Source: Peptococcaceae bacterium 1109 (lineage in GTDB: Bacteria; Bacillota; Limnochordia; Darwinibacteriales; Darwinibacteriaceae). Taken from it: a stretch of 64,000 bases of DNA. The notes under the pieces were generated by a model. That model was not told where the DNA came from, searched no databases, and worked only from the letters and a program-made list of their open reading frames with translations. This document shows, one piece after another, positions 34,533 to 43,243 of this stretch. Within the stretch, counting starts at the first letter, position 1, and the number at the start of each line of letters is the position of its first letter. The position numbers were made by a program, and so were the translations under genes. The stretch lies in contig LDJB01000001.1 in NCBI GenBank assembly GCA_001028815.1, positions 184,707 through 248,706 on the forward strand, given 5' to 3'.

Positions 34533-35279
34533 ATGGCCAAAAGTGCAGTGCGGGCAGAAGAACCGAAACTTGAGCTAGGGGATTTAGTGGCCAAAGCAAG
34601 GGCTGGTGATGATCGAGCACGGGAGAGAATCCTCCATGAGTATCGGCCATTCTTTCTGCGAGTTGCCTCAAGTGTCTGCCGGAAGTATCTGGTTTTAGGC
34701 CGCGATGATGAAGCCAGTATCGCAATGATTGCTTTTAATGAGGCTATTGATGCCTATGATGATACCGCGGGAGCGTCATTTCTCAGCTTTGCGGAAATTG
34801 TCATTAAGCGGCGGATGGTCGATTTCTTTCGGCGCAGGACTAGGCGGCAAGAGGAAGTGCCCATCTCCAGTTTTGAAACTGAAGATAACGAAGATAATGT
34901 GATTAAGAAGATCGAATCCAAAGAGGCAATTGCCACTCTCCAGATCCAGTTAGAGGCGGAGGAACGGCGGGAAGAGATCTTTCGCCTGAATCAGCTTCTC
35001 AGCCACTACGGGATCAGTTTCTCCGATTTGGTGAAGGCCTCCCCAAAACACCAGGATGCTCGTGAACGAGCTCTGGAGGTGGCGAGGATACTGACGAAGG
35101 ATCCGGTGCTGCTGCAGTATCTCACCAGCAAGAAGGCTCTGCCCCTGAAGGAACTCCAGCAGCGGGTGAATGTGAGCCGCAAGACCTTGGAGAGGCAGCG
35201 GAAGTACATAATTGCCTTGACATTGATCTTGATTGGGGAATTCTACTATCTACAGGAGTATCTTAAGAGACCTGAGTAA
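34533..35279 (+). CDS. sigI: RNA polymerase sigma factor SigI
   Basis: A 248-residue sigma-70-like factor of the SigI family. Region 2 (about 20-95) includes YRPFFLRVASSVCRKY, DDEASIAMIAFNEAIDAYD and SFLSFAEIVIKRRMVDFFR; the C-terminal part (180-240) has an unusual helix-turn-helix (LKELQQRVNVSRKTLERQRK) specific for SigI rather than a standard region 4. SigI answers heat stress in Bacillus and polysaccharide signals in cellulolytic Clostridia. ATG start with AAGGGAGG 7 nt upstream. It is followed by its cognate anti-sigma gene rsgI. Confidence 0.94.
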   Translation: MAKSAVRAEEPKLELGDLVAKARAGDDRARERILHEYRPFFLRVASSVCRKYLVLGRDDEASIAMIAFNEAIDAYDDTAGASFLSFAEIVIKRRMVDFFRRRTRRQEEVPISSFETEDNEDNVIKKIESKEAIATLQIQLEAEERREEIFRLNQLLSHYGISFSDLVKASPKHQDARERALEVARILTKDPVLLQYLTSKKALPLKELQQRVNVSRKTLERQRKYIIALTLILIGEFYYLQEYLKRPE

Positions 35280-35293
35280 AGGAGGGAGCCAGT

Positions 35294-36214
35294 GTGCGGA
35301 ACAGAGGGGTTGTCGTGGAGATCGCCAAACGCAATCACATCATCGTCATGACTTCCCGCGGCGAGTTCGTACAGGTTCCATTTAAGAAGCAGGTCTATGT
35401 GGGTCAGGAAGTCTCGTTTAAGCAGAAAGAGCGCATCACGCCGTGGCAGGTAGGTGCGGCTGCCATGTTGTTCCTCGCACTTGTCAGTTCTTGGAACATG
35501 TTCATCGGCAATCTTGTTCCTGGCATGAATACCCCGGCCTTCTTGATCACTCTTGATTTCAATCCCAGCATTGAACTGTCTGTAAGTGAGGCACACAAGG
35601 TGCTGGCCGCCTCCGGTTTGAATGATGATGGCGAGGCTCTCATCAGCCGCATCAATGTGGTAGGCGAACCTCTCACCTTAGCCTTGGAGCGCATCAGCAC
35701 CCAGGCAGAGCAAGACGGTTATTTGCGGCAGGGGGCTGGCGAGATCATTGTCACCATTGCCGCACGGGACAGCCAAGATACCACCTTCGTGGAGCTGAAG
35801 AACAGCCGCACTGGTGACCACAGCAAGTTAGAACAGGCCATCGTGGGAGCTCTTACCCAAAACTCCCTCGCCCAGGTGCGGATATGGCAGGTCCCAACCC
35901 AGGTGTTAGTTGATGCAAAGACCGCGGGCATTACGCCCGCTCGCTATATTGCCATCCGCCAGCAGGCCCAAGCCATAGTCCCCCAGCGCATCGAAGCTCG
36001 CCTTACTACGGCTGAACGCCAAGAGCGGGCCCAAGAGCCGGAGGGCGGCGAGGCTATTGCAGCTGCGGCCGCGTTCGGGTCGGCGCCCCGCCCGGTGCTC
36101 ACCCCACTGCAGTGGACTAACACGGCTTCAGCACACACTGTATCGGATCGGCCGTCCCAACTACCGTTTTCGTTTTCAAACCGTATGAAAGGGGCACTCA
36201 GCTACAGCGAATGA
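35294..36214 (+). CDS. rsgI: Anti-sigma-I factor RsgI-type membrane protein
   Basis: A 306-residue protein: a cytoplasmic RsgI N-domain (1-48) that would hold SigI, one transmembrane helix (about 52-72) and an extracytoplasmic domain. LITLDFNPSIEL (84-95) contains the Asn90-Pro91 step at which RsgI family proteins are known to cleave themselves before regulated intramembrane proteolysis. The rest of the outer part ends at residue 306 without any carbohydrate-binding or glycoside hydrolase domain, unlike clostridial RsgI proteins, so the signal is probably not a polysaccharide. The tail (about 235-306) is Ala/Pro-rich and may be disordered. GTG start 14 bp after sigI. Its stop overlaps the queA start. 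Confidence 0.9.
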   Translation: MRNRGVVVEIAKRNHIIVMTSRGEFVQVPFKKQVYVGQEVSFKQKERITPWQVGAAAMLFLALVSSWNMFIGNLVPGMNTPAFLITLDFNPSIELSVSEAHKVLAASGLNDDGEALISRINVVGEPLTLALERISTQAEQDGYLRQGAGEIIVTIAARDSQDTTFVELKNSRTGDHSKLEQAIVGALTQNSLAQVRIWQVPTQVLVDAKTAGITPARYIAIRQQAQAIVPQRIEARLTTAERQERAQEPEGGEAIAAAAAFGSAPRPVLTPLQWTNTASAHTVSDRPSQLPFSFSNRMKGALSYSE

Positions 36215-38379: not shown

Positions 38380-38443
38380 GAGGATCTGAGCCTGTGTGGT
38401 AGAACCAAGGTTAGAATGCACATTTATCTAAGGAGGTTGCTTG

Positions 38444-38734
38444 ATGTTTTTCTTGGAGGCTGAAGTGCCCGCAGGCGCGCAGATGATTCAGCTGTTTATG
38501 CCGTTCATTATCGTCATAGGGGTATTCTACTTTATGGTAATCCGTCCCCAACAGAAGCAGCAGAAACAGCGGCGGGAAATGTTGGATGCGCTGAAAAAGG
38601 GTGACCGGGTTGTGACGATTGGCGGCATCTACGGTGAGATCACACTTCTAAAAGAAGACTATGTAACACTAAAAGTTGCCGACAAGGTGGAAATCAAGGT
38701 TCGCCGTTCTGGAATTGAGTCTGTGCAAAGCTAA
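38444..38734 (+). CDS. yajC: Preprotein translocase subunit YajC
   Basis: A 96-residue Sec accessory protein with one N-terminal transmembrane helix (about 14-34, MPFIIVIGVFYFMVIRPQQ) and a cytoplasmic basic domain containing LKKGDRVVTIGGIYGEI. In bacteria it associates with SecDF. ATG 38444 has AGGAGG 7 nt upstream. It follows tgt and precedes the secDF genes, but with five unrelated genes in between here. Confidence 0.95.
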   Translation: MFFLEAEVPAGAQMIQLFMPFIIVIGVFYFMVIRPQQKQQKQRREMLDALKKGDRVVTIGGIYGEITLLKEDYVTLKVADKVEIKVRRSGIESVQS

Positions 38735-38759
38735 AACCACCACAAGGTGGTTTTCTTTT
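38733..38759 (+). terminator. Intrinsic terminator after yajC
   Basis: Perfect 9-bp stem AAAACCACC / GGTGGTTTT with a 4-nt loop, followed by CTTTT. Confidence 0.8.
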
Positions 38760-38801: not shown

Positions 38802-39344
38802 ATGCGGAGAGCAATCATATGCTTTGTTACTTGCCTGATTTTGATTACTGCTGTACTGCCTGCATCTGCAGCAGGAACATTCTACCTCCATGACCATCCT
38901 GACTACTGGTGGTATGTCCTTTCTGATGTGCCCTTCAGTGCTGTAGTCCCTTCTGGTGCTCAATACTACGTGGAGCGCAACGTGTTCGGTATGAACATCC
39001 TGGAGATCTTAATGGATAACGGCAGTGTGTCCATTGAAGTTGCTTCCATGAAAAACTCCACAATTGATGCAGTGCGGAAGAGCATAGAAGAACGCTTTAA
39101 ACCGGCGGTAAAGGACATTTCTGTGAAGGCCAACCGTATGATCACTACTTCCAACAATCTGCAGTGTCACTTTTACCACTATGAGGCCACAGGGAATCAC
39201 GGCCGAAAGGTGATGCTCAGGACCGTGATTTTTGAGCGGAATGGGAACGTGGTAAGCCTGAGCTTGTTCCTGGACTCCAGCAAGTATGTGGGAGATGTGC
39301 AGCAGTATTGGCTGAGGCTGGTCAACGATTCGGAGTGGAACTAA
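38802..39344 (+). CDS. Secreted protein of unknown function
   Basis: A 180-residue protein with a clear signal peptide (about 1-23, ending PASAAG, cleavage likely after ASA). The mature part has an aromatic-rich start (HDHPDYWWYV) and a domain rich in hydrophobic beta strands (VVPSGAQYYVE, VMLRTVIFERNGNVVSLSLF). I do not recognise the family; PsbP/MOG1-like or DUF1795-like folds have similar patterns and could be tested. ATG start with GAGAGGAG upstream. It lies between yajC and the phosphatase gene; it may be exported through the nearby Sec genes, but no specific role can be read. Confidence 0.8.
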   Translation: MRRAIICFVTCLILITAVLPASAAGTFYLHDHPDYWWYVLSDVPFSAVVPSGAQYYVERNVFGMNILEILMDNGSVSIEVASMKNSTIDAVRKSIEERFKPAVKDISVKANRMITTSNNLQCHFYHYEATGNHGRKVMLRTVIFERNGNVVSLSLFLDSSKYVGDVQQYWLRLVNDSEWN

Positions 39345-39358
39345 ATCTGTAGAGGGAG

Positions 39359-40066
39359 ATGGGAGTGGAGATTCGAGTTGGCATCGCCAAGGTGGGTAAG
39401 TATGGCGTGGGTGTAGGCGGGGATTCTGTGGAGGTAGTGGAGCGGCCCCGAGGGGGTTTATCCGTTGTACTTGTGGATGGCCAGGGGCACGGTGCCGCAG
39501 CAAAGCGTACCAGCCACATGGTGGCAGCAAAGGCTTCTGCCCTCATTGGGGACGGAGCCCGGGATGGGGCGGTTATGAGGGCGATCAGCGATTTTCTCTA
39601 TGCTCAGCGCGATGGCAAGGTTTCCTCAACGGTCACCATCCTCAGCGCTGATCTGGATCACAAGTCGCTTGTGATTTCTCGCAACACAAATTCTCCGGTG
39701 ATTATCGGACACAGCGATGGTTCGAGTTGCATTGATTCTGAAGTAAACCCCATTGGAGTGCACCGCCTCAACAGGCCGGCCATATCCCACTGGCCGTTGT
39801 TTCCAGGTACTGTCTTGGTAGGATTCACCGATGGGGTAACTCACGCTGGGCGGTACCACGGCGGAAAGTTCGAGCTGGACTTTGTCGCCGGGCTTCTCCA
39901 AACAGGCGTGGAGGATGTGCAAAGGCTTGCCGATGAGATCCTCGACCACGCCATCACCCTTGATAAAGGGCGGCCCGCAGATGATATGGCTGCTGCAGTT
40001 CTAGCAGTTTTACCACTGGATAAGGGCTTGGGGATTCGGCGCATGGCGGTGCACTATCCATTCTAG
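39359..40066 (+). CDS. SpoIIE/PP2C-type serine/threonine phosphatase
   Basis: A 235-residue single-domain phosphatase of the SpoIIE (PPM) type. Metal-binding motifs: VDGQGHG (Asp40), FTDGVTHAG (Asp158) and PADDMAAAV (Asp208/209). It lacks the membrane helices of SpoIIE itself and resembles the size of RsbX or RsbU catalytic domains, which dephosphorylate anti-anti-sigma factors. No kinase or STAS-domain partner is encoded in the window. ATG start with AGAGGGAG upstream. The next two genes (P-loop, HD) follow closely and look like one unit with it. The substrate is unknown. Confidence 0.88.
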   Translation: MGVEIRVGIAKVGKYGVGVGGDSVEVVERPRGGLSVVLVDGQGHGAAAKRTSHMVAAKASALIGDGARDGAVMRAISDFLYAQRDGKVSSTVTILSADLDHKSLVISRNTNSPVIIGHSDGSSCIDSEVNPIGVHRLNRPAISHWPLFPGTVLVGFTDGVTHAGRYHGGKFELDFVAGLLQTGVEDVQRLADEILDHAITLDKGRPADDMAAAVLAVLPLDKGLGIRRMAVHYPF

Positions 40067-40082
40067 CTTGGTGGTGAGATCC

Positions 40083-40493
40083 GTGGTTGGCACGGACACG
40101 GCAAGGACAGCCCCCCTAATCTTGATTGTGGGAGTTTGCGCTTCGGGCAAGACTACCCTGTCCGGTGGCTTACGGGCCCTGGGCTATAATGCCCGCAGCC
40201 TGGCTCAGGAACACTCGGTGAGTCCCCGGTTCTGGCGCAGGCGCCAGCCGGATTTTCTCATTCTCTTGCATTGTGAGCTGAGCACCATCAAGGCTCGGAA
40301 AGGCGTTACTTGGGGAATGAGCAGCTATGAGCAGCAGAAGGACGTCTTGAGGGACGCTCGTGAGCATGCGGACCTGGTGGTAACAACCGATGGCCTCACC
40401 CCTGAGCAGCTCATCCGCTACGTCCACCAAACCCTGCAAGAGCATGGGATCTACCCATCCCAAGGAGGTGAAGGGCATGACTGTCAGCTTTAA
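40083..40493 (+). CDS. Small P-loop NTPase-like protein
   Basis: A 136-residue protein with a Walker A motif GVCASGKTT (residues 17-25), as in small kinases. The rest is too short for a full kinase: it has no evident LID or second nucleotide motif beyond a hydrophobic strand LILLHCE and the VVTTDGLTPEQL region, a pattern seen in shikimate/AAA-like kinases. GTG 40083 is chosen because GGTGGTGA lies 4 nt upstream; TTG 40068 is the upper limit. Its end overlaps the start of the HD gene by 17 bp. I cannot name a function; a regulatory NTPase coupled to the phosphatase and HD proteins is a guess. Confidence 0.75.
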   Translation: MVGTDTARTAPLILIVGVCASGKTTLSGGLRALGYNARSLAQEHSVSPRFWRRRQPDFLILLHCELSTIKARKGVTWGMSSYEQQKDVLRDAREHADLVVTTDGLTPEQLIRYVHQTLQEHGIYPSQGGEGHDCQL

Positions 40494-41139
40494 AGATGTG
40501 CAAAGCCACCCCTTCGTGGAGGCTTTCGTCAACCAAGCAGATGCTAATCTAGAGGCATTGGGTTATACCGAGCACGGCAAGCGCCATGTGGGGCTGGTCT
40601 CGTCAATAGCCCGTAACATCCTCCGCCGCTTGGGCTATCCGGAGCGCACTGCCGAACTGGCGGCTATCGCCGGTTATGTGCATGATATCGGCAACTCCGT
40701 CAGCCGGATTCACCATGGGCCCACAGCTGCAGTGCTCATCGCCCCTGTTTTGCAGGAGCTGCAGATGCCTCCTCACGAGATAGCCCAAGTCCTCAGTGCT
40801 GTGGGTAATCACGAAGAGGAGACGGGCCACCCTGTAAATGCGGTGGCAGCCGCGCTGATCCTGGCTGATAAATCCGATGTGCACCGGACTCGCACCAGGA
40901 GCAAAGAACTGACCAGCTTTGATATCCACGACCGGGTAAACTACGCCGCGGTCAAGTCGTTTCTTGATGTGGATGAAACAGAGCGGGTTATCAGTCTGAA
41001 TGTTACCATTGATACTGAGATCTGCCCCATCATGGAGTACTTTGAGATTTTCCTCCAGAGGATGCTCATGTGCCGCAGGGCGGCAGAGTTCTTAGGATGC
41101 CAGTTCAAGCTGAACATCAACGATACACCACTTCTGTAA
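40477..41139 (+). CDS. HD-domain phosphohydrolase
   Basis: A 220-residue cytoplasmic HD-superfamily protein. The metal site is H37, H69-D70 in GYVHDIGN, and later His in the VGNHEEETG region, with LADKSD completing the motif. Such proteins hydrolyse nucleotides or cyclic dinucleotides; the substrate is not known. No membrane segment or sensor domain. ATG 40477 has CAAGGAGGTGA upstream. Proteins of this type beside secD occur in Clostridia. It ends 26 bp before secD. Confidence 0.88.
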   Translation: MTVSFKDVQSHPFVEAFVNQADANLEALGYTEHGKRHVGLVSSIARNILRRLGYPERTAELAAIAGYVHDIGNSVSRIHHGPTAAVLIAPVLQELQMPPHEIAQVLSAVGNHEEETGHPVNAVAAALILADKSDVHRTRTRSKELTSFDIHDRVNYAAVKSFLDVDETERVISLNVTIDTEICPIMEYFEIFLQRMLMCRRAAEFLGCQFKLNINDTPLL

Positions 41140-41165: not shown

Positions 41166-42371
41166 ATGGGGCGGAATATTTGGCGCATTGCACTAATTGT
41201 TGGCGTTGTGGCTGTCAGCGCAGCCATGCTGTACTTCACCCCGTTCAACCTGGGCCTGGACCTAAAGGGCGGGGTACATGTAGTTCTTGAGGCCCAGCAA
41301 AGGGAAAGGGCTGTGACCGCGGAGGATATGCAAGGGGCTCTTACCATCATCGAGCGCAGGGTAAATGCGCTAGGTGTCTCGGAGCCCGTGATTCAAAGGC
41401 AGGGGTCTCACCGCATTATCTTGCAGCTTCCGGGCATTCACGATCAGCAGCAAGCTGTGGACACCATCGGTAAGACAGCGCTGTTGGAGTTCAAAGATCC
41501 CTTTGGCAGGACCGTGCTCACCGGTGCCAATCTAAAGGGCGTGCAGCTTGGTACAGATCGGTTTGGGCGTCCCGCGATCGACCTGGAGTTTGACCGGGAA
41601 GGGACGGAACGCTTTGCAGATATGACCATCCGCTATCAGGGGCAGATTACTCAAATTCTCCTTGATGGAGAGATCTTACAGGAAGTAATGATCAATGAGC
41701 CCATCTTAGAAGGCAAAGCACAGATCACTGGTTCCTTTACCCTTGATGAAGCCCGCAATTATGTCATCTTGTTCCAAGAAGGGGCACTGCCCATTCCTAT
41801 GAAAATTATGGAGATCCGCAATGTAGGCCCCACACTGGGCCAAGATTCTGTGAGTACGAGCTTTAGAGCGGGAACTGTGGGCGTGCTCTTGGTTTTGGCT
41901 CTTATGGCTTTTTACTACAAAGCCCCTGGGCTTGTTGCCGATCTGGCTTTGGTGCTCTATGTGGTTATTGCCCTGGGAGTACTCTCTGGGATGAATGCTG
42001 TGCTTACCCTTCCAGGAATCGCCGGCTTCATTCTTTCCATCGGAATGGCTGTGGACGCTAATGTCTTGATCTTTGAGCGAATTAAAGAAGAGGCTGCGAG
42101 CGGAAAGCGATTACGCTCCGCGGTGCAGGCTGGGTTTAAGCGGGCCTTTGGCACCATCTTGGACTCGAATATCACCACCCTGATCTCTGCCGCTGTGCTC
42201 TTTTATCTGGGGACGGGAGCGATTAAGGGATATGCAGTGACATTAGCGGTGGGAATTCTGACGAGCATGTTCACGGCGGTGTTCGTGACTCGGGTGCTAT
42301 TGGAGGCCATGGTTAACCGCTTCCACGAGCGGATGGCGAGGGACCTTGGCGTGCAGGGGGTGGCGAAGTGA
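41166..42371 (+). CDS. secD: Protein translocase subunit SecD
   Basis: A 401-residue RND-type membrane protein that uses proton motive force to pull exported proteins from SecYEG. It has the family D1 motif LGLDLKGGVHVVLE at 30-45, a periplasmic first domain, and a six-helix membrane block with SIGMAVDANVLIFERI (D4 motif, around 285-300). ATG start with AAAGGAGG upstream. secF overlaps its stop by 4 bp. Length fits the Bacillota SecD, when separate from SecF. Confidence 0.95.
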   Translation: MGRNIWRIALIVGVVAVSAAMLYFTPFNLGLDLKGGVHVVLEAQQRERAVTAEDMQGALTIIERRVNALGVSEPVIQRQGSHRIILQLPGIHDQQQAVDTIGKTALLEFKDPFGRTVLTGANLKGVQLGTDRFGRPAIDLEFDREGTERFADMTIRYQGQITQILLDGEILQEVMINEPILEGKAQITGSFTLDEARNYVILFQEGALPIPMKIMEIRNVGPTLGQDSVSTSFRAGTVGVLLVLALMAFYYKAPGLVADLALVLYVVIALGVLSGMNAVLTLPGIAGFILSIGMAVDANVLIFERIKEEAASGKRLRSAVQAGFKRAFGTILDSNITTLISAAVLFYLGTGAIKGYAVTLAVGILTSMFTAVFVTRVLLEAMVNRFHERMARDLGVQGVAK

Positions 42372-43243
42372 GTTTTGTAAGCATTGGCAGAAAGAGCGTG
42401 ATGATCTCCGGGATCGTTGTAGTGTTGTGCCTTGTGCTTCTCCTGTGGCCAGGCCTTAATTGGGGCGTTGACTTCACTGGCGGCACAATCTTGGAGCGCA
42501 GAGTGGGGCGGGGAGTCTCCACTGGAGAGATCGGTGCTGTCATGGATGGAGCTGTGCCAGAGATGAACCTGTCCCGCTCAGCGATTCAGCTGGTAGATGG
42601 GGATCGGGAGTTTATCGTGCGCACACACGAGCTATCTAACGATGAGATTCTCCGAATTGATAAAGCCTTTGAGGAGGCGTTCGGCGGACTGGTAGAGCTG
42701 CGGACTGAAGTGGTTGGCCCGGTCATAGGCCGGGAACTTGTGCGGAACGCGGTTCTCGCGGTAGTCGTTGCCTCCATAGGAATTCTTCTCTACGTGGCCT
42801 ACCGCTTTGAGCACCGGTTCGCGGTGGTAGCCGTGGCTGCATTGTTCCACGACGTAGTTCTGGTCCTGGGTTGTTTTGTCCTCCTGAGGCGGGAAATCAA
42901 CAGTCCTTTTGTAGCGTCAGTCCTAACGGTGGTGGGCTATTCTATCAATAACACCATCGTGATTTTCGACCGCATGCGGGAAAACCTTAAGCTTTCCCCA
43001 AAAGAGCCCCTGCCGGAGCTGGTTGAGGGGAGCATCAGGCAGAGCCTGACCCGTACTATCAACACCAGCATAACGACTCTTCTGACAGTACTCATGCTGG
43101 TGATCTTCGGTGGAAGCGCCATCCGGGATTTTGCCCTAGCCCTGCTAATTGGAGTGGTGGTAGGCACCTATTCCTCCGTTCTGGTTTCCGGGCCCCTGTG
43201 GCTGATGTGGACGGAACGGCAGCGTAAGCCAAAGATGGCATAA
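42368..43243 (+). CDS. secF: Protein translocase subunit SecF
   Basis: A 291-residue partner of SecD. It carries WGVDFTGGTILE near the N-terminus and the membrane block with SVLTVVGYSINNTIVIFDRMREN around 175-200. GTG start overlapping the secD stop by four bases. It ends at a palindromic terminator shared with the convergent hpt gene. Confidence 0.95.
   Translation: MSFVSIGRKSVMISGIVVVLCLVLLLWPGLNWGVDFTGGTILERRVGRGVSTGEIGAVMDGAVPEMNLSRSAIQLVDGDREFIVRTHELSNDEILRIDKAFEEAFGGLVELRTEVVGPVIGRELVRNAVLAVVVASIGILLYVAYRFEHRFAVVAVAALFHDVVLVLGCFVLLRREINSPFVASVLTVVGYSINNTIVIFDRMRENLKLSPKEPLPELVEGSIRQSLTRTINTSITTLLTVLMLVIFGGSAIRDFALALLIGVVVGTYSSVLVSGPLWLMWTERQRKPKMA

Follow-up and report, generated by a model that had tools for sequence, protein, structure and literature searches.

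Bacterial SpoIIE-type phosphatases belong to the PP2C (PPM) class, and one account treats them chiefly in their role of regulating STAS anti-anti-sigma factors (PMC11418112). A second account describes how such phosphatases are controlled via their switch helices by regulatory domains or partner proteins, as RsbP is by RsbQ, and gives the metal ligands of SpoIIE as D628, D746, D795, and the carbonyl of G629 (PMC5468089).

The gene pair described here recalls several of these systems without matching any of them. Like the partner-switching modules SpoIIE-SpoIIAA-SpoIIAB and RsbU-RsbV-RsbW, it couples a PP2C phosphatase with a putative ATP-binding protein, but that protein has a predicted P-loop fold rather than the fold of a HATPase-type kinase, and there is no STAS gene in the unit. 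Like PrkC/PrpC, it joins the gene of a kinase-like protein to a PP2C gene, although the Hanks kinase fold is lacking. The pair is real and conserved, and no library or paper that we searched assigns it a function; our literature search found no paper on the phosphatase/P-loop pair or on its locus. Most economically, the P-loop protein would serve the phosphatase as a dedicated functional partner, whether as writer, regulator, or substrate.

Organization of the Locus

In the window (the whole 64-kb stretch of DNA that was analyzed, from a genome of 2.7 Mb in 11 contigs that, to judge by named relatives, is a member of a Limnochordia-type order of Bacillota), ORF calling places four genes, all on the + strand, between yajC (38441-38734, +), which encodes a preprotein translocase subunit, and secD (41166-42371, +), which is followed by secF (42368-43243, +). 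The names yajC, secD, secF, tgt, queA, recJ, era, mutS, and mutL are presumed identifications on our part. The four genes specify, in order, a secreted protein of 180 aa (38802-39344, +), a stand-alone SpoIIE-type PP2C phosphatase of 235 aa (39359-40066, +), a minimal P-loop protein with a predicted kinase fold (40083-40493, +), and an HD-domain protein of 220 aa (40477-41139, +), whose gene overlaps that of the P-loop protein by 17 nt. A preliminary description had noticed four closely spaced genes between yajC and secDF, and the open reading frames bear this out. Orthologs of the four, 37-89% identical depending on the gene, keep the same order in relatives, and the arrangement is therefore more than chance; yajC has similarly placed orthologs, and secF also has orthologs in relatives. 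A terminator-like hairpin followed by a T run is predicted 3' of yajC (38739-38751, +), but three such sites were found in the region against 4.4 expected from shuffling; their number is not above chance, so the hairpin does not establish separate transcription.

The four genes are nevertheless a composite and not one unit. The phosphatase and P-loop genes, here called the core genes, form an obligate pair, and the HD and secreted-protein genes are gained and lost independently of it. The small signalling module proposed earlier for the locus thus holds for a widely conserved pair, and the other two genes fall outside it.

Elsewhere in the window (34533-36214), a gene for a sigma-70 region 2 protein is followed by one for an RsgI_N/RsgI_M anti-sigma protein. 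These SigI-RsgI-type genes adjoin queA on its upstream side, a position kept across the order.

Co-Inheritance of the Phosphatase and P-Loop Genes

Profile searches of 348 Bacillota genomes, one even draw of the phylum, found the P-loop protein in 42 and an ortholog of the phosphatase in 41. All 41 phosphatase-positive genomes also hold the P-loop gene, and neither gene occurs in 306. In each of the 41, both genes lie on one contig and strand with the phosphatase first, and the profile matches are separated by -11 to 159 nt. Assignment of phosphatase orthologs was aided by a bimodal distribution of scores, in which orthologs reach 208-372 bits and the next best match 100 bits. A single genome (G287) holds the P-loop gene alone, the phosphatase match there being weak. 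Both genes are jointly absent from some members of three families that otherwise hold the pair (f3, f25, and f54). The hypergeometric value for co-occurrence (1e-52) takes no account of relatedness, and we do not treat it as a probability.

Closer to the window genome, a phosphatase ortholog (54-100% identity) is present in 22 of 60 genomes, its own included, all other matches scoring 52 bits or less; these orthologs come from 14 of 22 genomes of the family, 8 of 14 in the rest of the order, and 0 of 24 in the rest of the class. We compared the window with 21 further loci (20 longer stretches and L025), in every one of which the phosphatase is followed by the P-loop gene. For the P-loop protein, a scan of named genomes yielded 125 relatives, and the 80 kept as named loci come from Limnochordia-type bacteria, Negativicutes, Halobacteroidaceae, other Bacillota, Anaerolineae, Ktedonobacter, and Sphaerobacter. 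The phosphatase lies directly upstream of the P-loop gene in 79 of the 80 (in Bacillota, Chloroflexota, and Thermomicrobiota), and in the exception (L082/G399) the two genes are on different contigs. The two genes are thus nearly always inherited together and adjacent, and conservation in other genomes, which had been set beforehand as the test of the earlier proposal, was found for the pair in both the Bacillota draw and the named loci.

In one metagenome-assembled genome of Selenomonas bovis (L086:5275-6354), the phosphatase and P-loop domains share a single open frame of 360 codons, whereas in cultured S. bovis (L119) the genes are separate, with a stop between them. Found in one MAG only, the fusion may be a recent event or an assembly fault.

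The HD and Secreted Proteins

The HD protein exceeds the Pfam HD cut-off (27.1 bits against 22), and its residues H37, H69, D70, H112, and D131 are invariant in 20 of 20 aligned sequences. Its family occurs in 180 of the 348 Bacillota genomes; the usual site is between yajC and secD (loci L178-L205), and in most cases the gene adjoins secD where the pair is lacking. The HD gene follows the pair in 11 of the 21 compared loci and is kept in four genomes of one genus (g11) that lack the pair; of the 41 pair-bearing Bacillota genomes, at least 22 have it directly after the P-loop gene, among the matches listed. It was accordingly rejected as a core member, being a widespread neighbor of secD that occurs independently of the pair, and the trio that had been put forward with it does not survive as a unit. 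A profile search of solved structures gave no credible match for the HD protein, and a literature search aimed at the family found no paper.

The secreted protein has a hydrophobic segment at its N-terminus and no credible match to Pfam or equivalog profiles. Its predicted structure (pLDDT 92.5), one of two models that the preliminary description had called for, is recognizable as a PsbP/Mog1-like sandwich and superimposes on 2xb3 with a VIA Z of 14.1 and an rmsd of 3.2 over 139 residues. The gene precedes the phosphatase in 19 of the 21 compared loci, the other two stretches starting at or near the phosphatase. It too was rejected as a core member, since a profile search of the 80 named loci found nothing at E 10 outside the Limnochordia-type order. 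Relative to the pair, both the PsbP-like secreted protein and the HD protein count as local additions.

The Phosphatase

The phosphatase scores 81.2 bits against a Pfam SpoIIE cut-off of 25, and the residues that we equate by motif with the metal ligands of SpoIIE (D40, G41, D158, D208, and D209) are invariant in 59 of 59 aligned sequences. To judge from its sequence, it retains the residues with which active PP2C enzymes bind metal. A solved ortholog, 3pu9, matches the phosphatase profile at E 1.9e-64; part of one account identifies 3PU9 as Sthe_0969 of Sphaerobacter and cites it among M2-containing structures (PMC5468089).

In its SpoIIE domain, metal ligands, and 3PU9 ortholog, the protein resembles the PP2C enzymes SpoIIE, RsbU, and RsbX. 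Unlike them, it consists of a bare domain of 235 aa without an N-terminal regulatory or membrane part, has invariant motifs of its own (R-D-G, R-N, and a C-terminal P), and has an obligate P-loop partner, a STAS partner not being required. Identity with SpoIIE proper was rejected, as the match to the TIGR02865 equivalog reaches 65.3 bits against a cut-off of 490.8 and is confined to the C-terminal part. The significance of the pair lies partly here: the orthologous group of 3PU9, which has no assigned function in the literature found, is obligately paired with a protein of another fold and lives in genomes that need not encode a STAS protein.

The P-Loop Protein

The P-loop protein has 136 aa if translation begins at the GTG at 40083, or 141 aa from the TTG at 40068; the start is uncertain, and in relatives it lies near residue 10-16 of the 141-aa form. 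Its Walker A motif, G-x-C-A-x-G-K-[ST], has G22, C24, A25, G27, and K28 in 67 of 67 aligned family members, and E48, H49, S50, R77, and T107 are likewise invariant in all 67. The invariant residues are grouped in four places, namely the P-loop, a Q-E-H-S motif that follows strand two, R77, and T107-D108; by analogy, E48 is likely to be the catalytic acid.

The structure model (pLDDT 87.7), the second of those called for, has a kinase-type alpha/beta fold in which the substrate-binding part is predicted to be much reduced, in keeping with the earlier remark that the protein is very short for a kinase. The top Foldseek match of the model is RapZ (1.6e-05), and it superimposes on shikimate kinase 2pt5_A with a VIA Z of 14.2 and an rmsd of 2.1 over 110 residues; the protein is accordingly modelled as a minimal fold of the shikimate-kinase/RapZ-N type. 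A search of a viral structure library returned weak matches only, several of them kinases.

With RapZ/YvcJ N-domains and kinases of the shikimate-kinase type, the protein shares the Walker A motif and the predicted alpha/beta kinase fold; it differs in its length of about 120 residues, in lacking the RapZ C-terminal domain, in carrying Q-E-H-S after the second strand, and in belonging to no curated family. RapZ itself was rejected (PRK05416 equivalog, 11.7 bits against 244), as the protein ends after the part resembling the N-domain; 13 of the 67 family members match RapZ-like_N at E 0.01 or better. The window protein falls below the AAA_18 cut-off of Pfam (27.5 against 29.4) and reaches no curated cut-off among Pfam, equivalog, and other family profiles, so known kinases were rejected as its identity.

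Because the pair is co-inherited and, in one MAG, fused, the phosphatase keeps its metal residues, and the partner has a predicted kinase-type fold, we tentatively favor, at somewhat less than even confidence, a two-protein phospho-signalling module in which the kinase-fold protein and the phosphatase oppose each other on one phosphoprotein. The P-loop protein would phosphorylate serine or threonine of a protein, either a partner or itself, using ATP or GTP, and the phosphatase would strip that phosphate, the two acting as opposing arms of one switch. P-loop kinase folds mostly serve small-molecule enzymes or nucleotide-binding adaptors such as RapZ, and the protein-kinase role is for this reason a guess.

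The invariant residues also bear on a quite unlikely variant, in which the P-loop protein would double as the phosphoprotein, autophosphorylating (for example, on the invariant S50) and being reset by the phosphatase. The presence of S50 beside E48-H49 in all 67 sequences and the obligate pairing would agree with such an arrangement, but S50 may merely bind substrate or metal.

Candidate Kinases and Partner Switching

Partners of known type were sought in 49 pair-bearing genomes. STAS, counted by PF01740 alone of the STAS profiles, was matched in 38 and HATPase_c_2 (PF13581, E 1e-8) in 41, leaving 11 and 8 genomes, respectively, without a match, and 7 of the 49 match neither. In view of these seven, the pair does not require a partner switch of the classical sigma-factor type. 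Action of the phosphatase on a STAS anti-anti-sigma factor that is the target of an RsbW/SpoIIAB-type kinase would suit the family membership of the enzyme and the window genome, in which one STAS gene lies beside one HATPase_c_2 gene, elsewhere than the locus; these, however, are presumably spoIIAA and spoIIAB, serving a separate full-length SpoIIE, and with the STAS-less genomes they make such a switch highly unlikely. The earlier observation that the window holds no partner kinase or STAS gene agrees with what is seen near the locus, the STAS, HATPase_c_2, and Hanks genes all lying elsewhere in the genome.

A Hanks-type kinase was matched in all 49 pair-bearing genomes, and in the window genome it lies about 3 kb from another PP2C. 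The P-loop protein was for this reason rejected as the sole Ser/Thr kinase candidate, and a PrkC-like Hanks kinase could be the writer of the phosphate. The finding lends weight to a possible, if doubtful, explanation in which the P-loop protein is a nucleotide-binding regulatory subunit that contacts the phosphatase at its switch helices and turns it on or off, while another kinase, such as the Hanks kinase, phosphorylates the substrate. A bare phosphatase domain whose only constant partner is the P-loop protein fits such an arrangement, as does the presence of RapZ, an adaptor, among the nearest folds of the model. Against it, the invariant E48-H49-S50 and R77 appear to resemble a phosphotransferase active site, going beyond nucleotide binding, and the listing of ortholog 3PU9 as M2-containing in part of one account (PMC5468089) suggests that an activator may be unneeded.

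Association With secDF

Where the named loci leave room for the comparison, secD lies within 2.5 kb downstream of the pair in 52 of 69, comprising 9 of 18 loci of the Limnochordia-type order, 36 of 38 of other Bacillota, and 7 of 13 of Chloroflexota and Thermomicrobiota. A strict link was rejected, no secD being found within 2.5 kb in the other 17, and secDF is absent at the locus from several of the 21 compared loci, including most of genus g4. The pair stands amid other genes in L079, L083, L107, and L123 and, together with the HD gene, upstream of genes resembling mutS and mutL in L078 and L085; because of these six loci, the association, strong as it is, is not obligatory. In loci L049-L053, mostly of genus g4, yajC and the HD gene are kept and secDF is missing.

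The usual position before secDF hints at a target of the pair that may have ties to the Sec translocon or to growth-coupled membrane assembly. For the earlier idea of a link with secretion, the basis is gene neighborhood, which is frequent but not universal. A bolder form of the two-arm switch, in which the P-loop protein is a new, minimal type of protein kinase of about 120 residues with a shikimate-kinase/RapZ-like fold that, with the PP2C phosphatase, reversibly phosphorylates a part of the SecDF-YajC translocon or a component linked to it in an ancient system of Bacillota and Chloroflexota, we consider unlikely. Identification of the phosphoprotein would define a new partner class for the SpoIIE-type family, might reveal a new protein-kinase fold, and would put to the test the idea that phosphorylation controls protein export by SecDF.

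The frequency of secD downstream could also mean that a small-molecule kinase and an unrelated phosphatase are joined merely by operon inheritance with secDF, and metabolite kinases are indeed the top structural neighbors of the P-loop model. This is improbable, however, as the two genes stay joined in the six loci away from secDF and are absent together. Distance correlation between the phosphatase and the P-loop protein, given secD, is moderate (0.49), against 0.72 between the phosphatase and secD, given the P-loop protein. We count this comparison against the two-arm switch, together with the Hanks matches, the solitary P-loop gene of G287, the separated genes of L082/G399, and the fusion being single.

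Chloroflexota and the Descent of the Pair

The P-loop gene is present in 35 of 201 Chloroflexota genomes. Of the 30 Chloroflexota loci examined, 28 have the phosphatase on the same stretch; L228 has none, and L237 lies at a contig end. In a tree of the joined pair, Bacillota are separated from Chloroflexota plus Thermomicrobiota with support of 99/96, a split that fits old vertical descent of the pair with many losses.

In six Chloroflexota loci (L216, L218, L221, L224, L230, and L238), the gene of a membrane protein lies between the phosphatase and P-loop genes, and in all of these except L238 a secD-like gene lies downstream. The intervening protein of L218, the one locus for which Pfam was run, has TrkA-N and TrkA-C domains, and a TrkA-type membrane protein between the genes of the pair makes a link to ion transport possible.
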